Positions 8,964-31,846 of a stretch of 36,327 nucleotides of DNA are shown here, in pieces. The translations under genes and the position numbers were made by a program. A model generated the notes under the pieces. The model had not been told where the DNA came from, searched no databases, and was given only the letters and a program-made list of their open reading frames with translations. Source of the stretch: Phycisphaerae bacterium (GTDB taxonomy: Bacteria > Planctomycetota > Phycisphaerae > UBA1845); contig JAUIEW010000020.1 of assembly GCA_030429365.1 (NCBI GenBank), positions 1-36,327 on the forward strand. The letters are read 5' to 3'. Numbering within the stretch: the first letter of the stretch is position 1; every line of letters begins with the position of its first letter.

Positions 8964-9389
8964 GTCAGCGCCTGCCCAATCCCCTTGATTCAATCGTCAC
9001 GCCGCTCGCCCGCTATATTCTTAGAGGGCTCTAAGGATATTGGATTCCCGATTGCTGGCATTCTAGGCTCATTTCTTCGCCTTTGCGTTCGACGCGTTTC
9101 CCAACACCGATCCGACAATCCAGTCGACCATCATCCGTTGGACGGAATCGCTGCAGGCAGAATCGCGTTCATCGGCGCCGACGCACTGCGACAAGCATGG
9201 GTTCGGGCATCGCGATTATTGGACGCTGGAAACCGACTGTGTCAAGCATATGTCACTTTTGTGATCTACCGGTGTATGCGCTTTTTGCCAGCGGGCCGAA
9301 TGCGTTAGAATAACAACGACTCGATGGCTTCGACGATCAACGTCTCGGAGCGTGTCGTTTTGAGCAATCCGGGGAAAGGGAACGAGGCC
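8964..9389 (+). other. Intergenic stretch (426 bp) before the secreted EEP gene
   Basis: No gene supported here. The stretch has a perfect 7-bp inverted repeat with a two-base spacer (CTTAGAGGGCTCTAAG, 9020-9035) not followed by a T-run, so it is more like an operator than a terminator. A possible but weak promoter for the downstream gene is TTGCCA (9285-9290) and TAGAAT (9306-9311), with a short 15-bp spacer. Confidence 0.35.
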
Positions 9390-11627
9390 ATGGTTTCATC
9401 TTCACGTCGTTTTTTCGTGCGCGCGGAGGTTTTCATTGTCGCGGCGCTCTTCGTCGCCACCATCGCAAGTAGCGCGCACGCCTTCGACCCGCTGTCTGGC
9501 GACTATTCAAAGGACGACGCGCTCGACGTGCGCATCGTCGCATACAATCACGCCCGCAATTTCATCGAAAACGCGAGTAACGATGCCGCGTTCAACCGGA
9601 TCCTGACCGCGCTGAGTCCCGACATCATCTGTTTCGAGGAATTCACCAGCGCCGTGTCCGTCAGCGATGTCGCCAATCGCATGAACAGCATCCTGCCGAC
9701 ACCCGGTGGATGGCAGGTTCACTTCGGGTTGCTCGGAGGCATCCGCACCGTGCTCGTCTCGCGGTATCCACTGACCATGACGCGCATCGACACGATCCCC
9801 GCATCCTCATCGCGCGGGGTGACCATTGCCCTGGTCGATCTTCCAGATGCCACCCATCCCCAGGATGTCTATCTGCTCGGCGTTCACCTCAAGTGCTGCG
9901 GCGACCCCGGTGGCACCGAAGACGCAAGTCGTCAGGACAGTGCCGACGCGATCGCCAACTGGCTGGGTGATGCACGCGGTGTCGCCCGCGCTTCCGGAAA
10001 CAACGTTGTCCTGCCCAGCGACACCCCCATGATCGTGCTGGGCGATTTCAATCTGGTCGGCGGACCACAACCCGAGGACACGATCACGACCGGCGACATT
10101 CAAGACGAGGCGACTTACGGCGTTGACGTGTCCGGCGACTGGGATGCCAGCGACATGACCAATCTCATGCCAGCCGACCCGTTCACCGGAGATACCTTCA
10201 CCTGGCAAGGAAGCCAGAGTTTCCCGCCATCCGCGCTCGATCGAATGTTCTACACCGACAGCGTGGTGACCGTGGCCAACAGTTTTGTATTGAATACCGA
10301 CACCATGTCGGCACCGGCATTGGCAGCCGCCGGCTTGCAATCTGGCGACACGTTGCCTGCCAACTCTTCGGATCATCTCCCGATCGTCATGGACCTTAGA
10401 ATGGCAAGCACGACGTGCACGGTCGATCCGGATTGCGATGACGGCTTGTTCTGCAACGGTGTTGAAACGTGCGACGGCAACAGTTCGTGCCAACCGGGCG
10501 TCGATCCGTGCCCCGGCGATTTGTGCAACGAAGTGCTCGACGAATGTGGTTCGTGCTCAGCCGACGGCGACTGCGACGATGGCAATGCCTGCACGACCGA
10601 CGCGTGCAATGGTGGAGCTTGCGAAAGCGCATGCCCGAACCAGATCGATCTATTCCCTTACAGCGAAAACTTCGATTCGGGATTTGGATTGTGGAATAAC
10701 GCCGTCGGCGATGACATCGACTGGACCCGCCTCAGCGGCTCGACACCGTCCAGCGGAACTGGACCGTCCGGCGATCATACGACGGGTTCAGGATCGTACG
10801 TCTACACCGAAGCGTCAGCCGCCAACAACGGTAACCCGAACAAGACAGCCCTTCTTCAGAGTCCCTGCATCGACTTGACCGGCGCCAATGCCGCAACCCT
10901 GACGTTCTGGTATCACATGTTCGGTACCAGCGTTGGCTCCCTGAATGTCGAAGTTTCCGATGACTGTTCCACTTGGACAAGCCTGTTCAGCGTGTCGGGC
11001 GATCAGGGTAACCAATGGCTTCAGGCTAACATTGATCTCACTTCGCACGTCGGGGCGGTCATAACGATTCGCTTCAGAGGCGTCACCGGTTCAAGCTGGA
11101 GCAGCGACATCTCCATCGACGACATTGCCATCACGGTCGTACCGGGCTGCTCGATCGATGATGACTGCGACGATGGCGTGTTCTGCAACGGGATGGAAAC
11201 TTGCGATGCCGGTACATGCAACGCGGGGACACCGGTCTCCTGCGACGACGGGATCGCATGCACAACCGACACATGCAACGAGGGAACGGATTCCTGCGAC
11301 CACACGCCAATTGACGCCAGTTGCGGCAACGGTCTCTTTTGCGACGGCGCCGAGGTTTGCGACCCGGTCTTGGACTGCGTTGCCGGATTCACGCCCTGCG
11401 GTATCGAAACGTGGTGCAGAGAGTCTGACGATTCCTGCGTCCCGTTTGGCAACGGCGACTTCGAATCCGACGGCGATGTGGATCTGATGGACTATGGCAT
11501 GTTCATGTCCTGCTTTGGCCTTTCAGCCAGTGGCGGCTGTGAGTGGGCCAACCTGACGGGTGACGAATTCGTCGATCTCGCCGACTTGCAAACGTTTGTT
11601 GGTCTGCTTGCGGGTCCAAACCAATAA
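9390..11627 (+). CDS. Secreted endonuclease/exonuclease/phosphatase-family protein with Cys-rich repeats, MAM domain and dockerin-like C-terminus
   Basis: About 745 residues from ATG 9390 (AAAGGG nine bases upstream), preferred to an ATG 66 bases earlier because a signal peptide then begins at once (RRFFVRAEVF...SSAHA). Residues about 35-340 form an EEP fold (DNase I/sphingomyelinase superfamily) with an EEF metal acid, GDFN (218-221) and a C-terminal SSDHLPI (D328, H329), the expected catalytic residues for phosphodiester or phosphomonoester cleavage. Next come Cys-rich repeats of the form DPDCDDGLFCNGVETC (about 345-415), a MAM-like beta-sandwich (about 418-585) and a second Cys-rich block. 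The tail has two Asp-rich loops (DGDVDLMDYG and DEFVDLADL) like planctomycete dockerin-type calcium motifs. Substrate (nucleic acid, phospholipid or other) is undecided. Confidence 0.88.
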   Translation: MVSSSRRFFVRAEVFIVAALFVATIASSAHAFDPLSGDYSKDDALDVRIVAYNHARNFIENASNDAAFNRILTALSPDIICFEEFTSAVSVSDVANRMNSILPTPGGWQVHFGLLGGIRTVLVSRYPLTMTRIDTIPASSSRGVTIALVDLPDATHPQDVYLLGVHLKCCGDPGGTEDASRQDSADAIANWLGDARGVARASGNNVVLPSDTPMIVLGDFNLVGGPQPEDTITTGDIQDEATYGVDVSGDWDASDMTNLMPADPFTGDTFTWQGSQSFPPSALDRMFYTDSVVTVANSFVLNTDTMSAPALAAAGLQSGDTLPANSSDHLPIVMDLRMASTTCTVDPDCDDGLFCNGVETCDGNSSCQPGVDPCPGDLCNEVLDECGSCSADGDCDDGNACTTDACNGGACESACPNQIDLFPYSENFDSGFGLWNNAVGDDIDWTRLSGSTPSSGTGPSGDHTTGSGSYVYTEASAANNGNPNKTALLQSPCIDLTGANAATLTFWYHMFGTSVGSLNVEVSDDCSTWTSLFSVSGDQGNQWLQANIDLTSHVGAVITIRFRGVTGSSWSSDISIDDIAITVVPGCSIDDDCDDGVFCNGMETCDAGTCNAGTPVSCDDGIACTTDTCNEGTDSCDHTPIDASCGNGLFCDGAEVCDPVLDCVAGFTPCGIETWCRESDDSCVPFGNGDFESDGDVDLMDYGMFMSCFGLSASGGCEWANLTGDEFVDLADLQTFVGLLAGPNQ

Positions 11628-12114
11628 GCCACGCCGTGCGGGTGTCCGGATAGCAATGAGCGATCCCGCGCGATCGGGGCGTTATATAGCGACATCGATC
11701 GATCCATAGCTCTGCCTGAATTCGACGCTGCATGGACCCCGTGCTCGCGTAATCCATTGAACAAAATACAGTTACGAATATCTGCCCGCCCCCGGTCAAC
11801 GGTCAATTGACGTGTCGTTTGTCCACATTTGACGCGCCCCCGGTGGCACGCGATGTGCACCACTCCTTGGATCGTATGTACGTCCCAAGCTTGTGGTGTA
11901 TCCATTGCAACTCGGCTTGGGGATCTTGGTACGGGCAGATGACAGCACAATGATCCTTCGCAAAACATCGGTCGGCGGACCATCGCCATCCGCACAGTCG
12001 ACATCTGCCCCACGAACTTCCCAATCAACAGTTGATACGGCAACACCAATCATCCGCGTCTTCGGGCCACGCGCGATGCACCTTCCAACCATGTTGTCAC
12101 CAGGAGTCCGAAAT
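11628..12114 (+). other. Intergenic region (487 bp) upstream of the octaheme cytochrome gene
   Basis: The reading frame of the cytochrome extends upstream through 11893, but the sequence there is not protein-like for an exported cytochrome, so I treat it as non-coding. It contains a perfect palindrome GTCAATTGAC (11802-11811) preceded by a further GTCAA half-site, possibly an operator for the cytochrome gene (inference). No clear terminator for the upstream gene and no recognisable promoter hexamers. Confidence 0.35.
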
Positions 12115-14640
12115 ATGCAGAACATCATCACCCGCAGCATGAAACTGATGGCCTTCGCGCCGCTCGCATTGTGGCTCGGTTGCACACCGCCTACCGACCC
12201 GACCTCCAAACTGATCGACGTTCACCAATTCCAGTACGACGAAGCAACCGCTGAGTACGTCGTGCAGGGTGAACGCATCGCCGAGTCCAAAGTCAAAGCC
12301 GACATGGTGAACCAGTTGTGCATCAAGTGTCACCAGGACTCTGCCGCCGAGTTGAAAGACTCGGTGCACTACCGCTGGGCTTCCCGCAACGACAACGTGC
12401 TGTTTCCCGGCGGCGGCGCGCACGGCATGATCGATCGCGCCTGCGGACTACCGGCATCGACATCGCTGATCAACTTCACGAGCGATGTTCAACTCGACGA
12501 ATGCGGCAAGTGCCATGTTGGCCGCTACCTGCCGATGGTCGAACAGATGCTCGTCGGCTCGTTTACGGAAATGGGTCTAACCGACGCCGAAACCCAGGCC
12601 GCCCGGATCATGGACGGCGGAATGGACTGCCTGATCTGCCACGCTGAATCGTATCGCTCCTATCCCGAAGATGCGGTATTCGTCGCAAACTTCGCTCCGG
12701 ACGACGCCCACTCACCAACGGCTGAAGGATACGCCCGCGTCGCCCGCGATGACACGGACTTCGACGGTGATGGTCAGCCCGACCCACTCATCGACACCGA
12801 CGGCGATGGCGAGCCGGACACGCCGCTGATGATGGACCGCGACGGCGACGGCATGCCTGAAACCCCATGGCCAACCGTCGCACAGGATCGCAGCGTCGAA
12901 GCGATGGGCTCCATCGGCATGACCAACGATCACACCTGCCTGCGCTGCCACGAACACGCCCGCACCGGTTACAAACGCGGCACGCTGTTTCGCGAGGGAC
13001 ACGACGTCCACGCAACGTCCGACGCGGTAGCCGCCCTCGGTGGCGGTGAAGGACGGCGTTGCGTCGCATGTCACACTGCCACCCATCACAAGTTCAAACG
13101 TGGCGACAACGTCGGCGGCGACCTCATGGCGGCTGACTTTGAAATCGGGTCCGAAGAAAACGAACTGAACTGCATGTCATGTCACCAGACGCAGGACCTC
13201 AACCCGGCCTACCACTCGACCGCGCACCTTGCGGCGATGTCATGCGAAACCTGCCACATCCCGCACACCACCGGAATCACCTATGCCCTTTGGGGACACG
13301 GTGCGAACATCACCTTTGGCCGCAGCGATGAAGGCCTCGACACGCTACGGATCACGAGCGATCACTTCCTCGACGACGGCACCGATGAAGACGTCAACAG
13401 CGACTTCGAGGCCTACAAGACCAATCCCACACTGATGTGGTTCAACGGTCAGGTGTCATTCCTTGCCCAACCGCTGACACTGCGTGGCACACCCGGCGCG
13501 AAGATCACGCCGTTCAAACCGATGGCCAACGGCATGGTGTTCGACGCGAGGTTCTTCGACGGCATCATGACCGGCAACGACGCGATGGATGGCCAATACC
13601 AATACAACGCCCACAGCATGTATCGATTCCTCGCGGGTGGAAACAACGCCGATGTCTTCGGCGCGCTCGATTTCCTCGACATGAGCCCAGAAGAAGCCCG
13701 CCAGATCACGCTGAACGATTTCATGTCGGAAAACCCCGACCGCCAGGCGATGGCGCTCATGCAGATTTTCCCGAACCTGACATACTTCGAAAAAACCGCG
13801 TTTGGCTATGTACGCTACACGGTGGGAAGCGATTCGCCGTGGGATGAGAACATGGACGGTTACGTCGATGTTGGTGCACCGTTCTATTTCGACATGCTAG
13901 CCGCCGCAAACAACGGGCTTCGTTCGTTCCAGGGATTCAACGGCCCGATGGGACTGCCAGCCGACTATTCCTGGTATCCGCCGTTTGAAGATGAATCCAA
14001 CCTCATCAGCATGAAAGTTCCCGACGGCACGCTCATCAAAATGTTCCTCTCGATGCAGGCGATGAACCTGCCGCCCGAGCAACAACCGGGATTCATGCAA
14101 ATGGTCGCGAACTATCCGGCGTTCTCAAACGGTATCACGCTGGGCGGTCACGGCGTTCGTCCGAAAGAGCAAGCCGTCGGCGCGGGCATGGACTGCAAAG
14201 CGTGCCACGGATCGGGCGGTTTGATGGATCATCCGATCCCAGTGACGACCACGGTGATGCGCGAAGTCGAAGGCTTCGGAACGTTTGAATTCCCGGTCTA
14301 CCGCTGGCGATACTACAACATGCACGAGTTGACCGACCTCGGGCTGCTGACATCCGATGAGGAGATCGTCGCGGGAACCGCCAGCGTCGACATCGCGGGT
14401 GACGCGACCTATGTGCGCGACAGCGACAACACCATCGTCGTCAATTACATGAACCCTGCTGGCGAAAGATCGTATCGGTCAGCCGACAACGCGGAATCGC
14501 TCGCAGGCACCGACCTGACCGCGGACGACCTGAGCTTCAACGGCGGATCGTGGATGCCGGTGCTCGAACCGGTCGTCAAGACGATTCCGAACTACGAAGT
14601 GCTGGGCTACACCGCGGAAGAAATGCTGTTTATGGATTAG
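12115..14640 (+). CDS. Octaheme c-type cytochrome lipoprotein with internal calcium-binding-type repeats
   Basis: 841 residues from ATG 12115 (GGAG eight bases upstream). The short signal peptide ends with LWLGC, so it is probably a lipoprotein facing the periplasm or cell surface. Eight covalent heme sites CxxCH are visible: C69, C130, C172, C275, C316, C353, C377 and, far downstream, C694. Between sites 3 and 4 (about 213-250) lies a series of thrombospondin-3-like acidic motifs (DFDGDGQPD, DTDGDGEPD, DRDGDGMPE). The length and eight hemes recall octaheme reductases/oxidoreductases (hydroxylamine, nitrite, tetrathionate), but the usual catalytic CxxCK or crosslinking tyrosine context is not recognisable. 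The safe call is electron transfer or an unknown redox activity. The gene is single and ends before a strong terminator. Confidence 0.92.
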   Translation: MQNIITRSMKLMAFAPLALWLGCTPPTDPTSKLIDVHQFQYDEATAEYVVQGERIAESKVKADMVNQLCIKCHQDSAAELKDSVHYRWASRNDNVLFPGGGAHGMIDRACGLPASTSLINFTSDVQLDECGKCHVGRYLPMVEQMLVGSFTEMGLTDAETQAARIMDGGMDCLICHAESYRSYPEDAVFVANFAPDDAHSPTAEGYARVARDDTDFDGDGQPDPLIDTDGDGEPDTPLMMDRDGDGMPETPWPTVAQDRSVEAMGSIGMTNDHTCLRCHEHARTGYKRGTLFREGHDVHATSDAVAALGGGEGRRCVACHTATHHKFKRGDNVGGDLMAADFEIGSEENELNCMSCHQTQDLNPAYHSTAHLAAMSCETCHIPHTTGITYALWGHGANITFGRSDEGLDTLRITSDHFLDDGTDEDVNSDFEAYKTNPTLMWFNGQVSFLAQPLTLRGTPGAKITPFKPMANGMVFDARFFDGIMTGNDAMDGQYQYNAHSMYRFLAGGNNADVFGALDFLDMSPEEARQITLNDFMSENPDRQAMALMQIFPNLTYFEKTAFGYVRYTVGSDSPWDENMDGYVDVGAPFYFDMLAAANNGLRSFQGFNGPMGLPADYSWYPPFEDESNLISMKVPDGTLIKMFLSMQAMNLPPEQQPGFMQMVANYPAFSNGITLGGHGVRPKEQAVGAGMDCKACHGSGGLMDHPIPVTTTVMREVEGFGTFEFPVYRWRYYNMHELTDLGLLTSDEEIVAGTASVDIAGDATYVRDSDNTIVVNYMNPAGERSYRSADNAESLAGTDLTADDLSFNGGSWMPVLEPVVKTIPNYEVLGYTAEEMLFMD

Positions 14641-14703: not shown

Positions 14704-14780
14704 GAGTAAACGCAAAGCGATCCAAACGCCTATGACAACCACCCCCCGAGTACGCACGGACTGCGAACTCGATCGCGTTG

Positions 14781-14818
14781 GAAGGCCCGCTGATTGTTTG
14801 GTGGGCCTTCTTTTGTTT
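14781..14818 (+). terminator. Rho-independent terminator after the octaheme cytochrome gene
   Basis: Stem GAAGGCCC (14781-14788) pairs with GGGCCTTC (14803-14810). It can be extended inwards by a G-T and a C-G pair, leaving a loop of about 10 bases, and is followed by TTTTGTTT. Orientation fits plus-strand transcription of the cytochrome, about 140 bp after its stop. Confidence 0.8.
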
Positions 14819-16496: not shown

Positions 16497-18446
16497 CTAT
16501 TCCGCGGCGCTTTGCAGCTTGACCGACTCGCTGTGCGTCCGTTCCTGGGCGGCTTCAATGATCAACCGCAGAAGATCCGAATAGCGTAGTCCAGCATAGC
16601 CGGCCATCATGTTAAACTTACCGTCCCAGCACCAACCGGGATTCGGGTTCACTTCCATCAGTTTGATGACGCCGTTCGCATCGGCTCGGAAGTCGAACCT
16701 TGCGTAGTCGCGACATTCAAGCCGCTCGAACAGCGTGTTGGAATGGTCGTAGAGCGTGCGACGCTGCTCTTCGGAGATGTCGGCTTCGGTGTACTGGACC
16801 TGGTCCCAATAGGGCGAATCCGGACGCCACTTCGATTCGTAGCAAAGAATCTTCGGCAACCCCTGGGGCAGTCGTGAGTAGTCAACCTGAAGCGCCGGCA
16901 GCGTGCGATACGACAAGCCGGGGTTACCAACCACCCCGACGGAATACTCCGTCCCCTCCAGAAATTCCTGAATCAGAATCGCGCAGCGCCCAAACGAATT
17001 TCGCAGCCACTCGATGTAGGCCATCAACTCGGTCGGATTCCGTACCACCGCATCCTTCGTGATGCCGACGCTGCTGTCGCCAAAGTTTGGTTTCACCAGC
17101 GCGGGAAAGGTAGCCGGCAACGTCGCGACGCTGTCATCCGGTCCGATGTACGACTCCATCGGCGTAGGAATGTCGAGCGACTCGGCGAATCCGCGCACTA
17201 GGTTCTTGTTGTAGCAAAGCCCAAGACATGCCGCCCCCGCACCGCTGTAGGGAATCCCGTGCATGTCCAACAGCGCCGGAACGTGCAGTTCCAACGTCGC
17301 GCGATTCCAATAGCCTTCGTCGCAAAAATTCAAGACAAACGATGGCGGTTCAGCGCGAAGTCGTCCCGCGAGCGACTGATGTTCATCGATGTAGGAGAAC
17401 TCGTAATCGGTCAGTTCGGCCAGCGCGACCTTGAGCCGATCGACGGTATCAATGTCGAGCGGGTTGAACTTCCCGTCCACCTTGATCGTGTCGGGCAGCG
17501 ACGGATCGCCCAAAAGAACTGTGACCTTCGGAAACGCGGGAGCCGACCGACTTGGCGGCGTCACTGACTTTGATCGACGCGAAAGCCGCGCAGTCAGAAT
17601 AATGCGGTGGGCCATCATGCCCAGGTCCTGCCCGCGATCGGAATCGGCTTCCAGCGTGCCGTGATAGCGAACCGATTCGAACCCGACCTTTTCAAGCAGG
17701 CTGGTCAGTTGCTCCTTTGAATAAAGGCGTTCGGCGTAGAACTGGTCGGCGATGATGCCCCGTTCCGAATGGGTGATCACTTCGCGCGAGATGATGCGCT
17801 CGCCATCTTTCGCCAGCGCCCGCTCGCGACAGACGAAGTGGTTCTGGTCGATCCACTCCCACGAACGCGGTTCAAAACCGGTTCGCATCCAGTCGCCGTC
17901 AACCACGTCCAGAAATACAACACCGCCGGGCATCAGCGAACTGGCAACGGCTTCGAGAACGGACTCGTCGTCGCGTTTCTGTTCGAAGTAGCCGAACGAG
18001 TTGCCCATCAACATGACGCAGTGAAACAGCTTGTCGCGCCGGCGAAACTTGCGGGCGTCGCCTTCGTGAAACGATGCCGACAGATTCTCTGCAGCCGCAC
18101 GTTTGCGGGCGAGGCGGATGAGGTAGCGCGACCGGTCGATGCCCGTGACTTCTTTGAAGCCGCGGCGGGCAAACTCCAGCGAGTGTCGCCCCTGTCCGCA
18201 GCAGACATCGAGGATGCGGTCGTTCGGATCCAATGCCGCGGCTTTGATGACGAGATCGACCTCGCGCTGCGTGTTCTCGGAATTCTCGACGACATCGCCG
18301 TCGGTCTTGAGGTATGCGGCGTTAAAGAGTGTTCGCCACCAATCGGAAGGAAGGTGTCGTTCCAAATCCGAAACCGGACCGAACGTGCGCGGAGCGGTTG
18401 CGGGACGCCGTCCAGCCGAGCTGGACTGCTTGCGGGTATCAGCCAT
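16497..18446 (-). CDS. Fusion protein: class I SAM methyltransferase + D-Ala-D-Ala-ligase-like ATP-grasp
   Basis: 649 residues, ATG 18446 with GAGGAA seven bases upstream. Residues about 30-290 form a Rossmann methyltransferase: motif I ILDVCCGQG (78-86), acidic TGIDRS (101-106), GDAR (129-132) and LMPGGVVFLDV (171-181). Residues about 306-635 form a complete ATP-grasp domain of the D-Ala-D-Ala ligase type: LNFCDEG (372-378), IPYSGA (398-403), ATP lysine in VKPNFGDSSVGI (451-462), QEFLEGTEYSVGV (493-505) and the metal-binding EVNPNPG (598-604). Ddl enzymes join carboxylate and amine through an acyl-phosphate. The methyltransferase would modify substrate or product. A true cell-wall ligase would not normally carry a methyltransferase, so this is more likely a dedicated peptide- or amide-bond-forming enzyme. 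First gene of a three-gene minus-strand set. Confidence 0.92.
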   Translation of the reverse strand: MADTRKQSSSAGRRPATAPRTFGPVSDLERHLPSDWWRTLFNAAYLKTDGDVVENSENTQREVDLVIKAAALDPNDRILDVCCGQGRHSLEFARRGFKEVTGIDRSRYLIRLARKRAAAENLSASFHEGDARKFRRRDKLFHCVMLMGNSFGYFEQKRDDESVLEAVASSLMPGGVVFLDVVDGDWMRTGFEPRSWEWIDQNHFVCRERALAKDGERIISREVITHSERGIIADQFYAERLYSKEQLTSLLEKVGFESVRYHGTLEADSDRGQDLGMMAHRIILTARLSRRSKSVTPPSRSAPAFPKVTVLLGDPSLPDTIKVDGKFNPLDIDTVDRLKVALAELTDYEFSYIDEHQSLAGRLRAEPPSFVLNFCDEGYWNRATLELHVPALLDMHGIPYSGAGAACLGLCYNKNLVRGFAESLDIPTPMESYIGPDDSVATLPATFPALVKPNFGDSSVGITKDAVVRNPTELMAYIEWLRNSFGRCAILIQEFLEGTEYSVGVVGNPGLSYRTLPALQVDYSRLPQGLPKILCYESKWRPDSPYWDQVQYTEADISEEQRRTLYDHSNTLFERLECRDYARFDFRADANGVIKLMEVNPNPGWCWDGKFNMMAGYAGLRYSDLLRLIIEAAQERTHSESVKLQSAAE

Positions 18447-21902: not shown

Positions 21903-24900
21903 CTAATTGGGGTCGTTCGGCCTTGCGATTCGTAATATCGTGGGAACGAACAGAAGGTTCATGATCGTTGAAGTCACCAAACCTCCGACAATAACGACGG
22001 CGAGAGGGAATTCAATTTCATGGCCGGGCTTGTTGCCGGCGATCACCAGGGGAATCAATCCGAGACCAGTTGAAAGCGCAGTCATCAGGATCGGCGATAA
22101 CCGTTCCTGCGCCCCTCGAATCAATAAGTCCACGTTCAACGGTTCACCGGTCTCACTTAAGAGATGTTCATAGTGGCTGACCATCATGATGCCGTTTCGT
22201 CCGGCGATTCCGAGGACGGTCACAAACCCCACCAGTGAACCCAACGAAAGTACGCCACCGCTGATGAATACGGCTGCCACACCGCCGACCAGTGAAAACG
22301 CCAGCGTCAGAACGATGAGGGCTGTCAGACGGATCGATTCGAATTCCACGTAGAGCAAGAGAACAATCAAGGCGACGGCAGCCAGTGCAAAAGTCATCAG
22401 CCGGCGCTGGGAAGCCTGACGCGCCTCGAACTCGCCCAGGAACTCGGGGTGGTATCCGCGATCGAATGTCAACGCTTCGACCTTGGCGCGTACATCGCGG
22501 GCAACGCTTCCGAGGTCGCGCCCCTTTGCATTGCAGGTGACGTCGATGCGCCGTGATGCGGCTTCGCGTTTGATCGCATTGGGCGCGGGCGTTATTTGAA
22601 TGTCGGCAAGGTCACCCAACCGAGCCTGCCCGCCTGAAGGTAAATCGATCAGCAAGTCGTTTAGTCGATGAGGATCGTCGCGCAAGCCGTCGCTACCCCG
22701 CACGGCGACATTGAAAACCATTTGGGATTCGTAGATTTCTCCGACCTTCGTACCTTGCAGAAGAGTTGTGGCGGGCCTGCGAACGTCGGCTGCTCGCAGT
22801 CCAAAGATGGAGGCGGCATCGGGTTTCAACGTCACCTGGATTTGCGGGACGAGCGTTTGTTGTTCGATGTGCAGGTCCGACACGCCCTCGATGCCTTCGA
22901 TCGCGTCGTAAACGTCCTGCGCTTTGGTGCGCAGGGTTGCCAACTCCGGTCCGTAGAGGCGCACAACAATACTTGCACTTGCACCGGTCAGCACTTCCTT
23001 GATGCGTTCCTTCAGATATGTCAGGACATCGCGATAGATGCCTGGGTACTCGTCAATGACGGCTTGGATGCTGGCCATCGTTTTCTCGAAATCAGCTTCC
23101 GGTTCAACGCTTACCCAAAGTTCACAAAACTCCGGTCCGACGACTTCGTCGGCGACTTCTGCGCGCCCCAGGTGTGCGCCGAAATTCCGAACGCCGGGGA
23201 TCGCGCGCAGCTTGCGACTGACGTTAACGGTGGAGCGACTTAATGCGTCGAGCGATGTGCCGGGCTTTTCAACCCAGTGCATCAGGAAATCGGTTTCCTG
23301 AAAATGCGGCAGGAACTCCTCGCCGAGCATGGGAACGCTCAACACCGCCCCAAACAGTACGCCGACAACGAGGATTCCGACGACGACGGGACGGCCTATG
23401 AAAATCAGCAGAATTCTGCGATAGGCGGATTTCATCCAGCGAACGAAGAACGGATCTTCGGCGATGTGTTGGGCATTGGGCAGGAGTAAGAGACTGAGCG
23501 CCGGCGTCACCGTTAGGGCGACCAACAGCGACACCAGAATTGCAAGAATGTACGACATCGCCAACGGACGAAAGAACGTTCCTGCCAGCCCCTCCAGAAA
23601 GAAAATCGGCAGAAAAACAAGGATGACAATCATCGTCGCAAAAACGACGGCACTTCGCACCTCTAGCGATGCTTTGAGGACGACGCGGAACGGCGACAGA
23701 GGCGTCGCCAGTTGTGCATTGAGGCGGAGTCTTCGGGCGATGTTTTCCACGTCGATGATCGCATCGTCAACGACTTCGCCCACGGCGATGACGAGACCGG
23801 CCAACGTCATTACATTGATGGTGCCGCCGCGCCAATAGAGCACAAGCAGCGCACCGAAGATCGAAAGCGGGATGGCCACTAGGCTGATCATCGCCGTGCG
23901 CCAGTTGAAGAGGAACATGACGAGGATGACCGCAACGAGCAGCGAACCCAGCATCATCGCGTGGGTCAGGTTGTCGATCGACCGCTCCACGAAAGATGCC
24001 GGGCGAAAGATGGTCGAGTCGATTTCGACGTCGGTAAGACCCGGCTTCAACAGTTCGATCGCGGCTTCGACTTGGCGGGTGACTTCAAGCGTGTTACCCC
24101 AGGGCTGCTTTTCAACGATAAGCAGCAGACCCGGGCCATCGTTAATCACGGCGTCGCCGATGGGTGGCGGAAAACCTTCGACCACATCGGCAACATCGCC
24201 AAGGCGTACAATCGCCCCGTCTTGAAAAGCGACGACGGTCCGTGCGAGATCGTCAGCCGTTTGAACGGCTGACGCATGTCGAATCGGAATACGCTGGTTG
24301 GGCGTGTCTACAAACCCGCCTGCACCGACGACCGTCGCATCGCCTGCCGCTCGTATCACGGCGTCGAGCGTGATGTTGTGGGCCTGCAAACGCTCCGGCG
24401 TGACGCGAACCTGCAACTCGCGATCACGTTGTCCCCAGATCGCCACGTTTGCGACACCGGATACGGCCATCAGGTGCGGACGGATTGTCCACTTCGCCAA
24501 TGTCGTCAGTTCAATTTGCGAGAGCGTGTCCGAGGAAACGCCGATTTTGAGTACCCGACTGAGCGACGACAAAGGCGACAACAGTACCGGTGGGCTGGCA
24601 ACGATGGGCAGGCGTGGCGCTTCGATGGCCAGGCGCTCCTGCACGAGTTGCCGCGCTTCCATCAGATCGGCGTCCTCGTCCAGATATAGCACGATGGATG
24701 AAAGCCCCAACACGGATTTCGACCGTAGCGTTTGCAGACGCGGCGTTCCGTTCAAGGCGCTTTCGAGCGGAACCGTGATCAGACTTTCGACTTCTTCGGT
24801 TGAAAGGCCCGGCGCTTCGGTCTGAATCTCGATACGCGGTGGAGCAAACTCGGGAAAGACATCCAGCGGAACCTGTGATGTCGATTGGACACCGGCCAGC

Positions 24901-24971
24901 AGCAAACCGATGGCGATGGCCAGCACGAGTACGCGAAGTCGCAATGAGGTTTTGACGATCCATGCAAGCAT
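21903..24971 (-). CDS. HME-family RND efflux pump (CzcA/CusA-like inner-membrane transporter)
   Basis: About 1022 residues from ATG 24971. A TTG at 25034 would add 21 residues overlapping the upstream gene, but family members begin as here ([19 protein letters not shown]). It is the proton-driven pump of a tripartite exporter. Twelve membrane segments and two large periplasmic loops are expected and the hydrophobic pattern fits, with PLDVFPEF after TM1. TM4 carries [14 protein letters not shown] (397-410), whose acidic residues serve proton relay. This differs from the DFG...DGAVV form of zinc/cobalt pumps and the AIGAMVDAAIV form of copper/silver pumps (from memory), so the metal is not assigned. 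Terminal gene of the efflux transcript. The stop is about 80 bp from the truncated zinc-ribbon relic. Confidence 0.95.
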
Positions 24972-25014
24972 GTGATTGAATCTCGCAAACAGCCGATGGC
25001 CAGTTCGTGTCCCG

Positions 25015-26301
25015 CTAGTGGCCCGAAGCCCCAAATTCGATGCCGAACAATTCCGCTGCGCCGGTTGTTACGACGGGATCGCCTTCAACAATTCCACTTG
25101 AGACTTGCACCGATTGACCGACCGAGTGCGCGATCGCGATTCGCTTTCTGACATAGGTGCCCTCGCTTTCGGCAACGTACACCCACGAGTCACCGTGAAT
25201 GTCATAGAGAACCGCCATTCTCGGAATGACGAGCGCTTCGGTTTCGCCCTTGGCAGGAATTGAAACGATCAATCTTTCACCGGCTTGGAATTCTCGTTTG
25301 GCATTGTCGAGTTCGTAATACAAATCAACGGTCGCGGTTGTCGAAGTAGCAGTGGGCGGAGCGAGGACAGGGGCAAGGGCAAACTCGGAAGAAGAAGACT
25401 TACCAAGCCTTCGAGCATGAGCCGATTCGTCTAACGATAGATGTTGAATGTCACCCACATAAACGCTGACGCGAACCCAAAGAGGATTAGCCGCCGTGAT
25501 TTCGCAAAGCGGTGCCCCGTTGGCGATGACCTCATTCGGTGCAACCAGTAGCCGCTGAACAATGCCACTGAATGGAACCGCTATTTGCAGTGCGGTGCTT
25601 TTCGTTTCGCCACTGAGAGCATTTAGCGTTGACTCAATTACCTCGCGCCGGACCTGTGCTGCTTCCAAGGCGGCTTGGGCCATGCGGTGATTCGCGGTCG
25701 CTTCATCGAGCGAACGTACTGAACCGGCATTCTCCTGAACGAGTTTCTGTGCCCGTTCGAGCGCGACCTTGGTACCGCCAAGTTGCGCGTTGGCGGCTTC
25801 GACATCGCCGACGGCCTGGGCCCTCGCTGATTCCAGATCGGCGCGGGCCCGAACCATCGCAATCCGGTCGGCAGGGTTAAGAACCTCGCCATGTCCCTGA
25901 AGCGAGGGGATCAACTGGAACAACGCGTCGCCTGTCGAAACGGTCGCGCCGGCTTGGGGAAAGGTTCCTTGTTCGGTTGTCGCAATGGTGCCAGCGAGCG
26001 GCGCGGAAATCATGATTGAGCGCCCTTCCGGAATCACAACTGCACCGCCATAGGTTCGATGGTTGCTAACGGCTTCAATGCGTGCGGGTACCGTTTGTAT
26101 GTCGAGGTGTGTTCGGGCGTCGTTCGATAGCGTGATGGTGGTAAGTTTGGATTCCGGTTGCGGATGGCTTACCGATACGCGTTCTTCGTGCGAGTGATCA
26201 CCACCGTCCTTTGCGGCGGAAGACTCTGTGCAACCGCTACTGGAATGTACGACGCTGACAACCGCTAATAGTCTTAAAAGTTTTCGCATCATCAAACCCA
26301 T
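25015..26301 (-). CDS. RND efflux membrane fusion protein (CusB/CzcB-like)
   Basis: 428 residues with a lipoprotein signal ([20 protein letters not shown]), so anchored in the inner membrane and bridging pump to outer-membrane channel. A His-containing patch ([14 protein letters not shown], about 33-46) just after the anchor could bind metal. A barrel-sandwich segment ([22 protein letters not shown]), a long alpha-hairpin ([21 protein letters not shown] through about residue 225) and a beta-barrel region ([22 protein letters not shown]) follow the usual order. Start codons at 26301, 26292 and 26289 are all possible. The first lies four bases after the stop of the upstream microprotein. The pump gene follows about 40 bp downstream of its stop. 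HlyD/MFP family, metal-efflux branch likely from context. Confidence 0.93.
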
Positions 26302-26305
26302 GACC

Positions 26306-26404
26306 CTAGAAAAGGAATGCGGCGAGAATCTGCCGGACGAAATCGAGAAGGAATCCGAAAACCGACTGAAAGAACATTTCCAGCGTCTGTGTTGTTGGAG
26401 TCAT
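26306..26404 (-). CDS. 32-residue hydrophobic microprotein inside the efflux operon
   Basis: ATG at 26404 with AAAGG eight bases upstream, stop TAG at 26306-26308, four bases before the fusion-protein start. The peptide starts MTPTTQTLEMFFQSVFGF and continues LLDFVRQILAAFLF. It is amphipathic to hydrophobic and ends at a phenylalanine. It fills the 120-bp gap between the TolC-like and fusion-protein genes exactly, with its own ribosome binding site, so it is likely translated. I recall similar small peptides at this place in other metal-efflux operons but cannot verify it. Small helical subunits exist for other RND pumps (AcrZ), so a pump-associated role is a reasonable guess. Confidence 0.65.
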   Translation of the reverse strand: MTPTTQTLEMFFQSVFGFLLDFVRQILAAFLF

Positions 26405-26422
26405 GTTTATACCTTTGGTCGT

Positions 26423-27967
26423 TCAATTCGGATTAGCTGTCATCGATTCGGTACTTGAGTCCGTCAGATCAAGCGCGTTCGTTCCGGGAAGTTTTCCGCC
26501 GCACGCACGGGCTAACTCGGCCTGTGTTACCAGCAGGTTTCGCAGTGCATCAGCCGACTGTTGCTTCTGCCCAAACATAGCGTTCTGCGCTTCGATCAGG
26601 ATTAAAACGCTTTCCTCGCCATTCTCGTATCGCCGCTGTGCCGTCCTGATATTCTCCTGGGCCTGAGGAAGCACCTCATTTTCAAACAGCGCATGTTGCT
26701 TATGGGTGGCTCGGGCGTTGTTGGACGCCTGTCGAATGTCGGCGGTCATCGTGTCGAGCAGGAATTCTCGTTCTTTGTTCAACCTCTCGTATACGAACTT
26801 TGCCTTGGCAATCTGTGCCTGATTTTGATCCCAGATCGGGAGAGTCAATTGGATGCTTGTGCCGAAAAGCGCATCGATGATCTGGTTGCGCATGACGTTG
26901 CGTTGCCCTTTGGATTGGATCGTCGGAGCGGTCAATCGCCCAGCAGCGATCGATGCGCGAGCGGTGTCGGCCAACAACTTGCGATCCGGAAGGGTTCGTT
27001 GCTCTGTGCGTTCGCCTTCAAGTCCGATGATCAGGCTGGGAAAAACCTTCATCAACTGCAAATCGATGTCTTGGGAAGCCGCTTCGACCTGCGCATCGGC
27101 GATTTGAATATCAAATCGGTTGACCGTTGCGACCGCGATCAACTCGTCGTCCGATGCAACGGCATGCTGCTCGTCGGCAAATGAATCGGCCAGTTGCCAG
27201 CTATCATCCCAGCGCACCACGCCGAGATTTTGCGCCAATGCAATGCGCGCATTTTCCAAATTGCGGGCAGCCAACAGCGCGTCATTCTCAGCCTGCAACA
27301 CCTGCGAGCGGACCAAACCGGCATCCAACGGGCTCGTCTCACCGGCATCAAGTCGCACCTGAGCGAGACGCAATGACTGCTGCGCGAGTTCAAGGTTGTC
27401 ATTCGCGATGACGTTCAACCGCTCGCGCCACAGGCAATCGTAATAGAGCGACTGCGTGGTCGTTGCGATACGAACGGCTTCATTCAGGACAGCCAACACC
27501 GTCTGTCGAAGCTGTGCTTCGGCGATCCTTTTCTTGACGGGAATCTGCCACAGATCGACAAGTTGCTGAGCCAGCCCAAGCCTTAATTCGCTCCGGCCAC
27601 CGCCTTCAATGAGTCGCGTTCCAATCACAAGCGACGGGTTGGTCCACAATCCGGATTGAACAACATCGGCACGCGACGCCCCGATCGTTTGAAACAGCGA
27701 TTGAAAATAGCGGTTGTTGAGCAAGGCCACGCTCACGGCTTCGTTGGCGGTGAGTCCGTCATCGAACAAAGCGAGCACTTTCTCGTCGGTTTCCAATTCG
27801 GCCAATGGGTCGAAGACGTCATCGACACCGAGTCGATCCTTGATTCGACTCGCAGCATCCTGGAAATCGGGTTTGGGATTGACCTGCGCGCACCCGAATA
27901 CACAGCACGAAACGATGATACACAAGGCAAGTGTTGCGCAATGTTGTTGACGAGTAAGAATGGTCAC
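26423..27967 (-). CDS. TolC-family outer-membrane efflux lipoprotein (CusC/CzcC-like)
   Basis: About 514 residues from GTG 27967. The frame is open to 28123, but the signal peptide (RQQHCATLALCIIVSCCVFGC, lipobox VFGC) begins just after this GTG, with AGGGA about 11 bases upstream. It forms the trimeric outer-membrane channel of the tripartite exporter. Two OEP repeats are visible: NRYFQSLFQTIGASRADVVQ...GLWTNPSLVIG near the start of the first, and IWDQNQAQIAKAKFVYERL for the second, with long helices rich in Ala/Gln and the family NP motif (TNPSL). First gene of the minus-strand efflux set and divergent from the regulator pair, sharing a roughly 200-bp promoter region. Confidence 0.92.
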   Translation of the reverse strand: MTILTRQQHCATLALCIIVSCCVFGCAQVNPKPDFQDAASRIKDRLGVDDVFDPLAELETDEKVLALFDDGLTANEAVSVALLNNRYFQSLFQTIGASRADVVQSGLWTNPSLVIGTRLIEGGGRSELRLGLAQQLVDLWQIPVKKRIAEAQLRQTVLAVLNEAVRIATTTQSLYYDCLWRERLNVIANDNLELAQQSLRLAQVRLDAGETSPLDAGLVRSQVLQAENDALLAARNLENARIALAQNLGVVRWDDSWQLADSFADEQHAVASDDELIAVATVNRFDIQIADAQVEAASQDIDLQLMKVFPSLIIGLEGERTEQRTLPDRKLLADTARASIAAGRLTAPTIQSKGQRNVMRNQIIDALFGTSIQLTLPIWDQNQAQIAKAKFVYERLNKEREFLLDTMTADIRQASNNARATHKQHALFENEVLPQAQENIRTAQRRYENGEESVLILIEAQNAMFGQKQQSADALRNLLVTQAELARACGGKLPGTNALDLTDSSTESMTANPN

Positions 27968-28044
27968 GTTCTGAAAGATCCCTGATTTAAAGCTTCTGAT
28001 GGCAGATCGTATTGACGCATCGTGGACAGAACATGAACGCAACA

Positions 28045-28059
28045 TGACAATCCTGTAAT
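28045..28059. promoter_or_regulatory. Cop-box-like operator between efflux and regulator genes
   Basis: TGACAATCCTGTAAT fits the pattern TGACAnnnnTGTnAT that I recall for CopR-type metal regulators. It lies in the divergent region 27968-28174, about 78 bp before the efflux start and 115 bp before the regulator start, which suits autoregulation plus control of efflux. The match is by eye from memory. Confidence 0.4.
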
Positions 28060-28174
28060 CTTGCCCATTTGGTGCATGACGAAATCGGCTACGGATTGCG
28101 TTTGGCCGGTGTTGCGGAAACAATTTGGAATTTGGCTAAGGGAGAAGTGAATCCCCCGGCGATGGACGTGCATC

Positions 28175-28861
28175 ATGCGAGCATTGGTAATTGAAGATGA
28201 TCGAGCCGTATCGCAATTCATCGAGCGAGGCTTGCGCGAAAACGGATTCGCAGTCGAGGTCGCGTTTGATGGACACGATGGCATGCAGACTGCCGAAGCC
28301 ACCGAACACGATGTGATCGTTCTGGACTTAATGCTTCCGGGGCGCGATGGATTCAGCATACTCAGTCAGATGCGGCAGGCCGGCAATAAGACGCCAGTGA
28401 TTTGCCTTACCGCCCGGGACTCGGTGGATGACCGCGTTACCGGATTGGACCTCGGAGCCGACGACTATCTCGTCAAGCCATTTAGTTTTGCTGAGCTACT
28501 CGCGCGAATTCGTGCGCTGCTACGCCGCGGCTCCCAACTTCTCGACAACCCGATCAAGATCGCGGACCTCTCAATCGATATTACGACTCGACAGGTTCGA
28601 CGCTCGGAGCAACGAATTGATCTCTCCGCGCGCGAGTTTGAGTTGCTCGAGTATCTCGCTCGCCACACTGGACAAGTGTTGTCTCGAACGATGCTGCTCG
28701 AAAAAGTCTGGGATGTAAACCGAGATCCACAAACCAACGTCGTCGATGTGCATATCAATCGGTTGCGCAAGAAAATCGACCGTGGTTTTTCAAAGTCATT
28801 GATCCACACAATTCGCGGTGTCGGATACGTCATTCGCGATACTGGTGGCGCATCCCAATGA
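28175..28861 (+). CDS. OmpR-family two-component response regulator (CusR/CopR-like)
   Basis: 228 residues. The receiver domain (1-115) has acidic E7-D8-D9, phospho-acceptor D51 (VIVLDLMLPGRDG), T79 and K101 (LVKPFSF). The DNA-binding winged helix (about 130-225) has LSAREFELLEYLARHTGQVL and VDVHINRLRKKID, typical of heavy-metal regulators. It would activate the divergent efflux genes when phosphorylated by the kinase encoded next. Its stop overlaps the kinase start (ATGA), indicating coupled translation. No strong ribosome binding site precedes the ATG at 28175, but homologous proteins start at the same place (MRALVIEDD). Confidence 0.95.
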   Translation: MRALVIEDDRAVSQFIERGLRENGFAVEVAFDGHDGMQTAEATEHDVIVLDLMLPGRDGFSILSQMRQAGNKTPVICLTARDSVDDRVTGLDLGADDYLVKPFSFAELLARIRALLRRGSQLLDNPIKIADLSIDITTRQVRRSEQRIDLSAREFELLEYLARHTGQVLSRTMLLEKVWDVNRDPQTNVVDVHINRLRKKIDRGFSKSLIHTIRGVGYVIRDTGGASQ

Positions 28862-30303
28862 AGATCGGTACACGGCTCACGCTTTGGGGAACGATCATCA
28901 CGCTCGCCACGTGTGCTGCCGTTTGTATCACGTTGTACATTGGGTTGAGCGTCTCTTTACACCGCGAGGTTGACAGTTTCCTCGAAGGGGAAGTGCAGGA
29001 GTTTCTCGCCATCCTGCTGGAGGAAGGGCCGGGAGGGTTCGACGCCATCGAAGCCGACATCCAGCGTGAGTTGGGAAGTCGGGCTCGCAATGACTTGACC
29101 TTTCGGCTGCTGGACCTTGAGGGCCGTCTGATTCTTGCAAGTCATACCGACCCGGAATTACCCGACCCCTGGATATTCAAGCGAGCGGGACTGAAAGATT
29201 CCGATGTATGGTTCGACACGGTGAGCCCCGACGGTGCGAACCATTCGACGCGCGCGTGCAGCACCGTCGCGGAGTTGCCGCAACGCGGGGAACACATCGT
29301 TCAGGCGACCTATTCGCTGGTAGGCGTGGATGCTGAACTGGGTCAATTCATGCGCCTTGAATTAATGGTGCTTTCTGCTGCACTCGTTTGTTCTTTTCTG
29401 GGAGGACGTTTCTTCGCTCGCAAGAGCTTGAAACCAATCCAGAAAATGACGGAGACCGCCAGCGCAATCAATGCCAGCAATCTGTCCGCACGACTTGAGC
29501 ATGCAGCAAACTTCGACGAGATTGATCAACTCGCCCGTGTACTAAATGAAATGCTTGAGCGGTTGGAGCGCCAGGTTCAACGAATCCGCCAATTCACTGC
29601 GGATGCGGCGCACGAACTGCGCACGCCGATTGCGGCACTGCGCGGTAACGCAGAACTCGCGTTGGGTGAAGCTGCCGATGCCAATCGCCGCCGTGAAGCA
29701 TTGGAAGAAAGCATCGAAGAATACGACCGACTTTCTCGTCTGACGGAAGACCTGCTTTCACTGGCACGTGCTGACGCTGGACAGTTGCTCTCAGCGCGTC
29801 AGCCGGTTGATGTTGGCAAGGCGATCGAAGACGTAGTCGATCTCTTCAGCGCGCTTGCGGAAGAACGGGGTATCGAGCTTTCTACATCAGTCGGATGCAA
29901 CGCCGTGATTGATGCAGACCCAGGTAGAGTCAGACAAGTCTTGAGCAACGTGTTTGACAACGCTTTGAAGTTCACGGATCGGGGTGGCGAAGTACGGGCC
30001 GTGCTAAGCACCGCGCATGACAAAGCGTTCCTGACGATCTCTGACAATGGAATCGGAATCGAACACGAGAACATCCCGAAACTATTTGATCGATTCTACC
30101 GCGCAGACAAAGCCCGCTCCCGCAGTTCCTCACTCAAGGGAGAGAGCAATGGATTCGGACTTGGCTTACCAATCTGCTATTCGATCATGGCCGCCCATGG
30201 AGGGAGCATCCGCGTGGAGTCTTCTGTTGGCCGAGGCACATCCGTCTTCATTGAGTTCCCGTTGTCGATTGAATTGGATAAGGCCACTGAAGCAGGTACT
30301 TGA
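28858..30303 (+). CDS. Membrane sensor histidine kinase (CusS-like), partner of the response regulator
   Basis: 481 residues. TM1 (LWGTIITLATCAAVCITLYIG) and TM2 (about 168-186, MVLSAALVCSFLGGRFF) flank a periplasmic sensor of about 130 residues. A HAMP linker (KPIQKMTETASAINASNL) is followed by a HisKA domain with phospho-acceptor H252 in FTADAAHELRTPIAAL. The ATPase domain has the N box (NVFDNALKF), DNGIGIEHENIPKLFDRFYRAD and GFGLGLPI. All key residues are intact. Sensor ligand not readable from the sequence; a metal ion is likely by context. It starts four bases inside the regulator gene. Confidence 0.95.
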   Translation: MKIGTRLTLWGTIITLATCAAVCITLYIGLSVSLHREVDSFLEGEVQEFLAILLEEGPGGFDAIEADIQRELGSRARNDLTFRLLDLEGRLILASHTDPELPDPWIFKRAGLKDSDVWFDTVSPDGANHSTRACSTVAELPQRGEHIVQATYSLVGVDAELGQFMRLELMVLSAALVCSFLGGRFFARKSLKPIQKMTETASAINASNLSARLEHAANFDEIDQLARVLNEMLERLERQVQRIRQFTADAAHELRTPIAALRGNAELALGEAADANRRREALEESIEEYDRLSRLTEDLLSLARADAGQLLSARQPVDVGKAIEDVVDLFSALAEERGIELSTSVGCNAVIDADPGRVRQVLSNVFDNALKFTDRGGEVRAVLSTAHDKAFLTISDNGIGIEHENIPKLFDRFYRADKARSRSSSLKGESNGFGLGLPICYSIMAAHGGSIRVESSVGRGTSVFIEFPLSIELDKATEAGT

Positions 30304-31124: not shown

Positions 31125-31456
31125 AAATAGTGTTTGCGTCTTACGGCAATTGGTGGAGAGGCCAACCCTTCCATGCGCGCCTCGGAAGGAGCGACCATAC
31201 CCCACCAAAATCCGGCATGGCACCAACAGCGGGTGAATGGTTGCGCGTGAATCACTTCAAAAAAATGTGAATAGTGCGCTGGCCGGGATTGATCCTGTCG
31301 CGCTAGAATCGGCGGAAGTCGGTCAATTGAATCACCGTTTTGGTGGCCCCGTTGCGATGTTCCAGCGCGACATATGCGAGGGGGGACGGGGTCGGTACGG
31401 ACTGCGGTTGATTGCAGCTTGATTCCGTTGCAAGCGGTCAAACATTCCCCAATGCA
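31125..31456. other. Intergenic stretch (332 bp) without recognisable gene
   Basis: Between the decayed regulator fragment and the small hypothetical gene. Short frames exist on both strands, but none has a ribosome binding site, a plausible start or recognisable motifs. It may be further debris from the decayed regulator locus. Confidence 0.35.
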
Positions 31457-31846
31457 ATGTCGATCTTCGCGCGAATCCGAAAACTGTTGCGGACTCACAT
31501 CCCATTGTCCGAGCGGTTTGTCGTGACGTGGGATGACGAATCCGTCTATCTCGATGATCGATGGAAAAGGAGAAAACGCGCAAAAGCGGAATTTCGGTGG
31601 ACCGACATTAAACGTATTTGTTTCCACGCAAGAGATTTCACTCTGCACGATTGGATTCACGTCTTCGTGACGGGCAGAGACAAGAGCTACACGATCCCGG
31701 TCGCAGCGGAAAATGGCGGCGCGTTCTGGGACGAAATTCTCAGACGCGGGCTATTCGACCCTGATCTGTCAGATGCAGCATTTCGTGCAAGCGAGGGGCT
31801 ATTCTGCTGGCCATCGCCAGCAACCGCCGAAACCGACCCGCCATAA
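31457..31846 (+). CDS. Small hypothetical protein, PH-like fold possible
   Basis: About 129 residues from ATG 31457 (an in-frame TTG 45 bases upstream has no support). No membrane segment or signal. The pattern ERFVVTWDDESVYL, then FRWTDIKRICFHARDF, then DWIHVFVTGRDKSYTIPVA and a final helix (GGAFWDEILRRGLF) resembles small bacterial proteins with a PH-like beta-barrel capped by a helix. This is a fold guess, not a function. Last gene before the tRNA, on the right side of the candidate island. The tail (ATAETDPP) is unstructured. Confidence 0.6.
   Translation: MSIFARIRKLLRTHIPLSERFVVTWDDESVYLDDRWKRRKRAKAEFRWTDIKRICFHARDFTLHDWIHVFVTGRDKSYTIPVAAENGGAFWDEILRRGLFDPDLSDAAFRASEGLFCWPSPATAETDPP

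Follow-up and report, generated by a model that had tools for sequence, protein, structure and literature searches.

Octaheme tetrathionate reductase (OTR) reduces nitrite, hydroxylamine and tetrathionate, and heme II has been named as its catalytic heme (PMC4484225); a Beggiatoaceae OTR reduces nitrite and tetrathionate in vitro (PMC6449678), and the ligation of the second heme by a lysine is a hallmark of the enzyme (PMC11024163). The related MmcA (TIGR04314), also a divergent branch from OTR stock, is defined by the loss of heme 2 and of this lysine (PMC11024163), while hydroxylamine oxidoreductase (HAO) and ONR share with OTR a wider octaheme fold family (PMC9213671). Here, we describe an octaheme cytochrome encoded in a 36,327-nucleotide stretch of DNA from a Phycisphaerae bacterium (UBA1845; assembly GCA_030429365.1, contig JAUIEW010000020.1, positions 1-36,327), hereafter the window. 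The gene is an open frame of 841 codons plus stop at 12115..14640 on the + strand, the strand of all features of this gene given below, and its full length is kept in relatives with 44-69% identity. We estimate a probability of about three in four that the protein represents an enlarged and divergent branch that is sister to the OTRs, and not a new type of octaheme cytochrome.

The protein has eight CxxCH sites, at residues 69, 130, 172, 275, 316, 353, 377 and 694, with successive spacings of 61, 42, 103, 41, 37, 24 and 317 residues. The original prediction, made from the DNA sequence alone, had described seven sites within residues 69-381 and an eighth at 694, 317 residues after heme 7, as well as three DxDGDG motifs between hemes 3 and 4 and the lack of a CxxCK site; all of these are borne out by the 841-residue frame, in which the acidic motifs start at 215, 227 and 241 and every CxxC is a CxxCH. 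The MccA sulfite reductase is marked by a CX15CH heme motif; a search of the protein for the pattern C-X(2-15)-CH returned only the CxxCH sites, so that no heme motif of the MccA type is present. The set of heme motifs is not due to chance, because three CxxCH sites were not reached in any of 20,000 shuffled versions of the protein, and two or more occur in none of the window's other frames. A single calcium-type loop arose in 35 of the 20,000 shuffles.

Several comparisons relate the protein to OTR. Its best NCBIfam match is TIGR04315, the tetrathionate reductase family octaheme cytochrome (E=3.5e-20), a model of 440 positions that is matched in two collinear stretches; the same model is matched by 20/20 scanned relatives, and each other multiheme model by fewer. 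A genome search of the phylum with TIGR04315 also brought up classical OTRs. In a joint alignment with OTRs, the eight CxxCH sites fall one-to-one in the OTR heme columns: heme 1 (CIKCH, residues 69-73; 12319..12333), heme 2, the predicted catalytic heme (CGKCH, 130-134; 12502..12516), heme 3 (CLICH, 172-176; 12628..12642), heme 4 (CLRCH, 275-279; 12937..12951), heme 5 (CVACH, 316-320; 13060..13074), heme 6 (CMSCH, 353-357; 13171..13185), heme 7 (CETCH, 377-381; 13243..13257) and heme 8 (CKACH, 694-698; 14194..14208). Moreover, a profile-profile comparison with OTR (E=1.2e-36, probability 99.9%) covers residues 59-479 with hemes 1-7, and a WFNG...AKITPFK segment that follows heme 7, in register. 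A profile of the clade (alignment A2) searched against the PDB finds 1SP3, the Shewanella OTR, at 1.4e-9 in three collinear stretches. The clade motif PGGGAHGMxDRxC is shared by two intermediates with smaller inserts, L070, which scores 150 bits against TIGR04315, and L072.

The remaining C-terminal part of the protein, searched alone, selects OTR heme 8 (H.V.PKE.AL...C..CH) at E=2e-7, with the next-best site at 0.024 and the other OTR sites at 0.02 or above; H679 (14149..14151) is the counterpart of the invariant histidine in the OTR motif HMV.PKE.AL. Because this region picks OTR heme 8 over the other sites, we read heme 8 as the ordinary OTR heme 8, moved further along the chain by insertion. 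The original prediction had regarded this heme as isolated and the spacing as unlike that of known octaheme families. Neither point survives the comparison, as in classical OTRs, too, seven hemes cluster and one lies apart (spacings of, for example, 55, 24, 39, 40, 28, 23 and 169), the latter 162-205 residues after heme 7.

The residues that characterize the active site of OTR are also found. In the clade alignment A2, K287 (within GYKRG; 12973..12975) and C110 (within DRACGLP; 12442..12444) are invariant; their OTR counterparts, K153 (in DAVKHGD) and C64 (in NNFC), numbered by counting on the alignment to 1SP3, are invariant in 17 OTRs. Both hhalign and an alignment that includes the intermediates place K287 opposite K153, the ligand of the catalytic heme in OTR (PMC11024163), and C110 opposite C64. 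A first MAFFT run had set C64 opposite T122, with C110 off by 12 columns; this pairing was dropped, since hhalign and the alignment with intermediates both pair C64 with C110. By analogy with OTR, K287 is predicted to ligate the iron of heme 2. Special chemistry may take place between Cys64 and Lys153 of OTR. Relative to OTR (Shewanella oneidensis SO4144, 1SP3), the protein retains the eight CxxCH sites in order and register, with heme 8 set apart, the lysine, the cysteine, most of the distal histidines, and the conserved segments after heme 7 and at heme 8. It differs from OTR in its length of 841 residues, against 440 model positions, in a calcium-type block, in two further long inserts and in being a probable lipoprotein.

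Three insertions account for the enlargement. The first, of about 60 residues between hemes 3 and 4, contains three DxDGDGxx[DE] loops (residues 215-249; 12757..12861) that are not present in OTRs. The second, of about 135 residues (about 480-613; 13552..13953), lies between the OTR-like segment after heme 7 and heme 8, opposite a gap in all OTRs, and has no Pfam match. It contains a fourth, less regular calcium-type loop, DENMDGYVD (577-585; 13843..13869), in which D577, D581, G582 and D585 are invariant in clade alignment A1, and which is canonical (D.NGDG..D) in the relatives L054 and L055. The third insertion, of about 115 residues, extends from heme 8 to the terminal LGY motif (14233..14583) and also faces a gap in OTRs; PDB sequence searches with the second and third inserts gave no match. 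The loops resemble, by motif, the calcium loops of dockerin or thrombospondin-3, and are putative calcium-binding sites. Full-length relatives retain all eight hemes, and most of them also have the calcium-type block. In some relatives (Cocleimonas, Thiocapsa, L065, L070 and L072) the loops are degenerate or in part absent, and the insert is therefore not a strict hallmark of the wider clade.

The long form was found in 3/114 genomes of the same order and in 5/392 of a sample of the phylum. An alignment-based scan of genome collections recovered 20 loci, from Planctomycetota (including Phycisphaerae), Cocleimonas, Thiotrichaceae, Thiocapsa, Thiohalocapsa, Sedimenticola and a few deltaproteobacterial metagenome-assembled genomes; a single-sequence pattern scan of genome collections recovered no locus. 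In a maximum-likelihood tree, rooted at the midpoint only, 18 long forms are separated from 11 OTRs with a support of 100/100. A classical OTR scoring above the cutoff is also present in 6/9 tested long-form genomes, Thiocapsa roseopersicina DSM 217 being a strain with both, and so the long form is a separate branch and no replacement for classical OTR. The same search found no classical OTR beside the long form of Cocleimonas flava DSM 24830, and in the window genome, where the family search likewise returned no classical OTR and where NrfA was considered as a companion enzyme and not found, the long form stands alone.

Other architectures related to OTR were also seen. Proteins from Thiocapsa and Thiohalocapsa genomes (L095, L090 and L089), which comprise forms of 730-766 residues with GKINRACGIPGS and GAKRG motifs and an 882-residue form with a PKD-like N-terminal part, bridge OTR and the clade of the window protein in the cysteine and lysine regions. 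In the same phylum, two OTR-type genes (L020 and L025) are fused in frame to extra CxxCH sites, reaching 13 in one frame. A long-form relative (L011/L054; G110 contig 192, 1-3933) lies inside an open frame of 1311 residues that runs off the contig at both ends and has 16 CxxCH sites in total; the octaheme part is preceded by NHL-like and dockerin-like stretches as well as additional CxxCH sites, and further CxxCH sites follow it.

The gene is preceded by a Shine-Dalgarno-like AGGAG (12102..12106), 8 nucleotides upstream of the ATG at 12115, and begins with a putative signal peptide whose end is lipobox-like (...LWLG-C23; 12115..12183). The lipobox is clearer in many relatives (LLAGC, LLSGC or ITAGC), and some have signals of a non-lipid type. 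The protein is probably lipid-anchored, and is best read as secreted and facing the periplasm. A hairpin followed by a T tail (14780..14811) matches the terminator consensus, in a sequence that yielded no more terminators than its shuffles.

The octaheme gene is isolated within the window, and the gene neighbourhoods of its relatives are mostly not conserved. A CRP/FNR-like regulator adjoins the gene in Thiotrichaceae, Thiocapsa and Sedimenticola loci (L059, L061 and L068), which would suit regulation by oxygen or nitrogen oxides. In both Cocleimonas loci, a divergent gene adjoins that codes for a lipoprotein-like, weakly ExtKL-like product with five CxxCH sites (L056, 7735-9528, - strand; L057, 7636-9384, - strand). 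The window genome also encodes a cytochrome c assembly protein and a membrane-anchored protein of 567 residues (G000 contig 79, about 31339-31584; L098) with seven CxxCH sites and a NapC/NirT match, a possible quinol dehydrogenase and electron donor. Elsewhere in the window, a single protein (16497-18446, - strand) joins an N-terminal SAM methyltransferase to a C-terminal D-Ala-D-Ala-ligase-like ATP-grasp domain; another (9324-11627, + strand) has an endonuclease/exonuclease/phosphatase domain and, after it, a MAM domain, of a type known mainly from animals. An ordinary set of RND efflux pump, membrane fusion protein and outer membrane factor genes (21903-30303) is adjoined by a two-component system in the opposite orientation.

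It is very probable that the protein works like an OTR. Following export, eight hemes c would be attached, and electrons from the quinol pool would most likely travel along the OTR-type heme chain to heme 2; there, with K287 in place of a distal histidine ligand and C110 adjacent, the Lys-ligated iron would reduce a small oxidised compound, reduction being the presumed direction. The substrate is most likely an oxidised sulfur or nitrogen compound, and a tetrathionate- or other polythionate-like compound, nitrite and hydroxylamine are all candidates; the occurrence of the clade in sulfur-oxidising bacteria hints at a sulfur compound. Most likely, the three inserts are additions to the OTR core that would stabilise it and reshape substrate access or partner docking. 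Several observations weigh against the placement of the protein beside OTR or against an OTR-like function. The full-length score against TIGR04315, 72.4 bits, is far under the curated cutoff of 375; the genes beside the octaheme gene include none recognisable as belonging to sulfur or nitrogen metabolism; and the alternative pairing of C64 given by one alignment has been mentioned. Structure prediction did not help: AlphaFold gave a pLDDT (its per-residue confidence score) of 32 without an alignment and of 50.7 with 20 sequences, the latter model being confident (as high as 93) solely within stretches of the added region and poor over the heme region, with residues 72-390 under 50, and fold searches of the PDB with the model were empty. 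For these reasons the packing of the hemes and the contact between the lysine and heme 2 are not visible in the model. Since the score is under the cutoff and the tree places the long forms apart, we file the protein not in TIGR04315 but in a sister clade.

The scores, which fall short of the cutoff for each of the curated multiheme models, and the three large insertions could be taken to indicate an octaheme type that is entirely new and has no kinship with those known; the original prediction had proposed that it may be a new type. That proposal stands insofar as the protein lies outside the curated families and its calcium-type insert is real; the unrelatedness is refuted by the OTR register over eight hemes (E=1.2e-36 in the profile comparison), the conserved lysine and cysteine and the intermediates, and we regard it as the least probable reading, next to negligible. 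Hardly more credible is membership of the HAO/ONR branch, with hydroxylamine, hydrazine or nitrite chemistry at a CxxCK or cross-linked catalytic heme: the number of hemes fits, yet CxxCK and any HAO/ONR Pfam match are lacking and the best NCBIfam match is OTR. The comparison with HAO, ONR/OTR and MtrA/OmcA profiles suggested by the original prediction thus came out in favour of OTR over hemes 1-7, with no match to HAO/ONR and, for the decahemes, local matches only. The latter, to MtrC/OmcA and DmsE/MtrA, are weak (30-38 bits) and fall on the closely packed hemes 4-7; an MtrC/OmcA assignment was rejected, as the protein has eight hemes, not ten, and its match to PF22113 is solely a local one of 30 bits. 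A more serious rival, although one that we consider unlikely, is a role as an electron conduit with an OTR scaffold: the protein would relay electrons between periplasmic or outer-surface partners without catalysis, lipid-anchored and docked through the added domain. MmcA is a precedent for an OTR relative turned conduit (PMC11024163), and the lipoprotein-like N-termini, the fused form with 16 CxxCH sites (L054) and the five-heme lipoprotein divergent to the gene in both Cocleimonas loci all agree with such a role. MmcA itself, however, has seven hemes and has lost heme 2 and the lysine, both of which are present in the window protein, so that an assignment to MmcA was also rejected; and because heme 2, K287 and C110 are invariant in the clade, the catalytic site appears to have been kept. 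Somewhat less doubtful, and still tentative, is the idea that the protein is an enzyme in its own right, acting on a substrate of its own: an octaheme reductase anchored at the surface or in the periplasm, in which a calcium-loaded insert between hemes 3 and 4 and the added domain around heme 8 would govern how the Lys-ligated heme is reached or how an extracellular partner docks, patchy in Planctomycetota and sulfur-oxidising Gammaproteobacteria and kept beside ordinary OTR.

Homology of the window protein to OTR, the one-to-one register of the hemes, the conservation of the lysine and the cysteine and the separateness of the clade are observed. The enzyme family beside which the protein belongs is known; what is new is the insert-bearing branch, previously unlabelled. 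No insert-bearing OTR clade turned up in a search of open-access full texts, subscription literature lying outside this search, and annotation by TIGR04315 at its cutoff would miss the long forms. The physiological role of OTR is unsettled, and a sister clade that keeps the catalytic lysine and cysteine, has gained a domain as well as calcium-type loops, and is found in named sulfur bacteria could help to show which function selection maintains in this scaffold.
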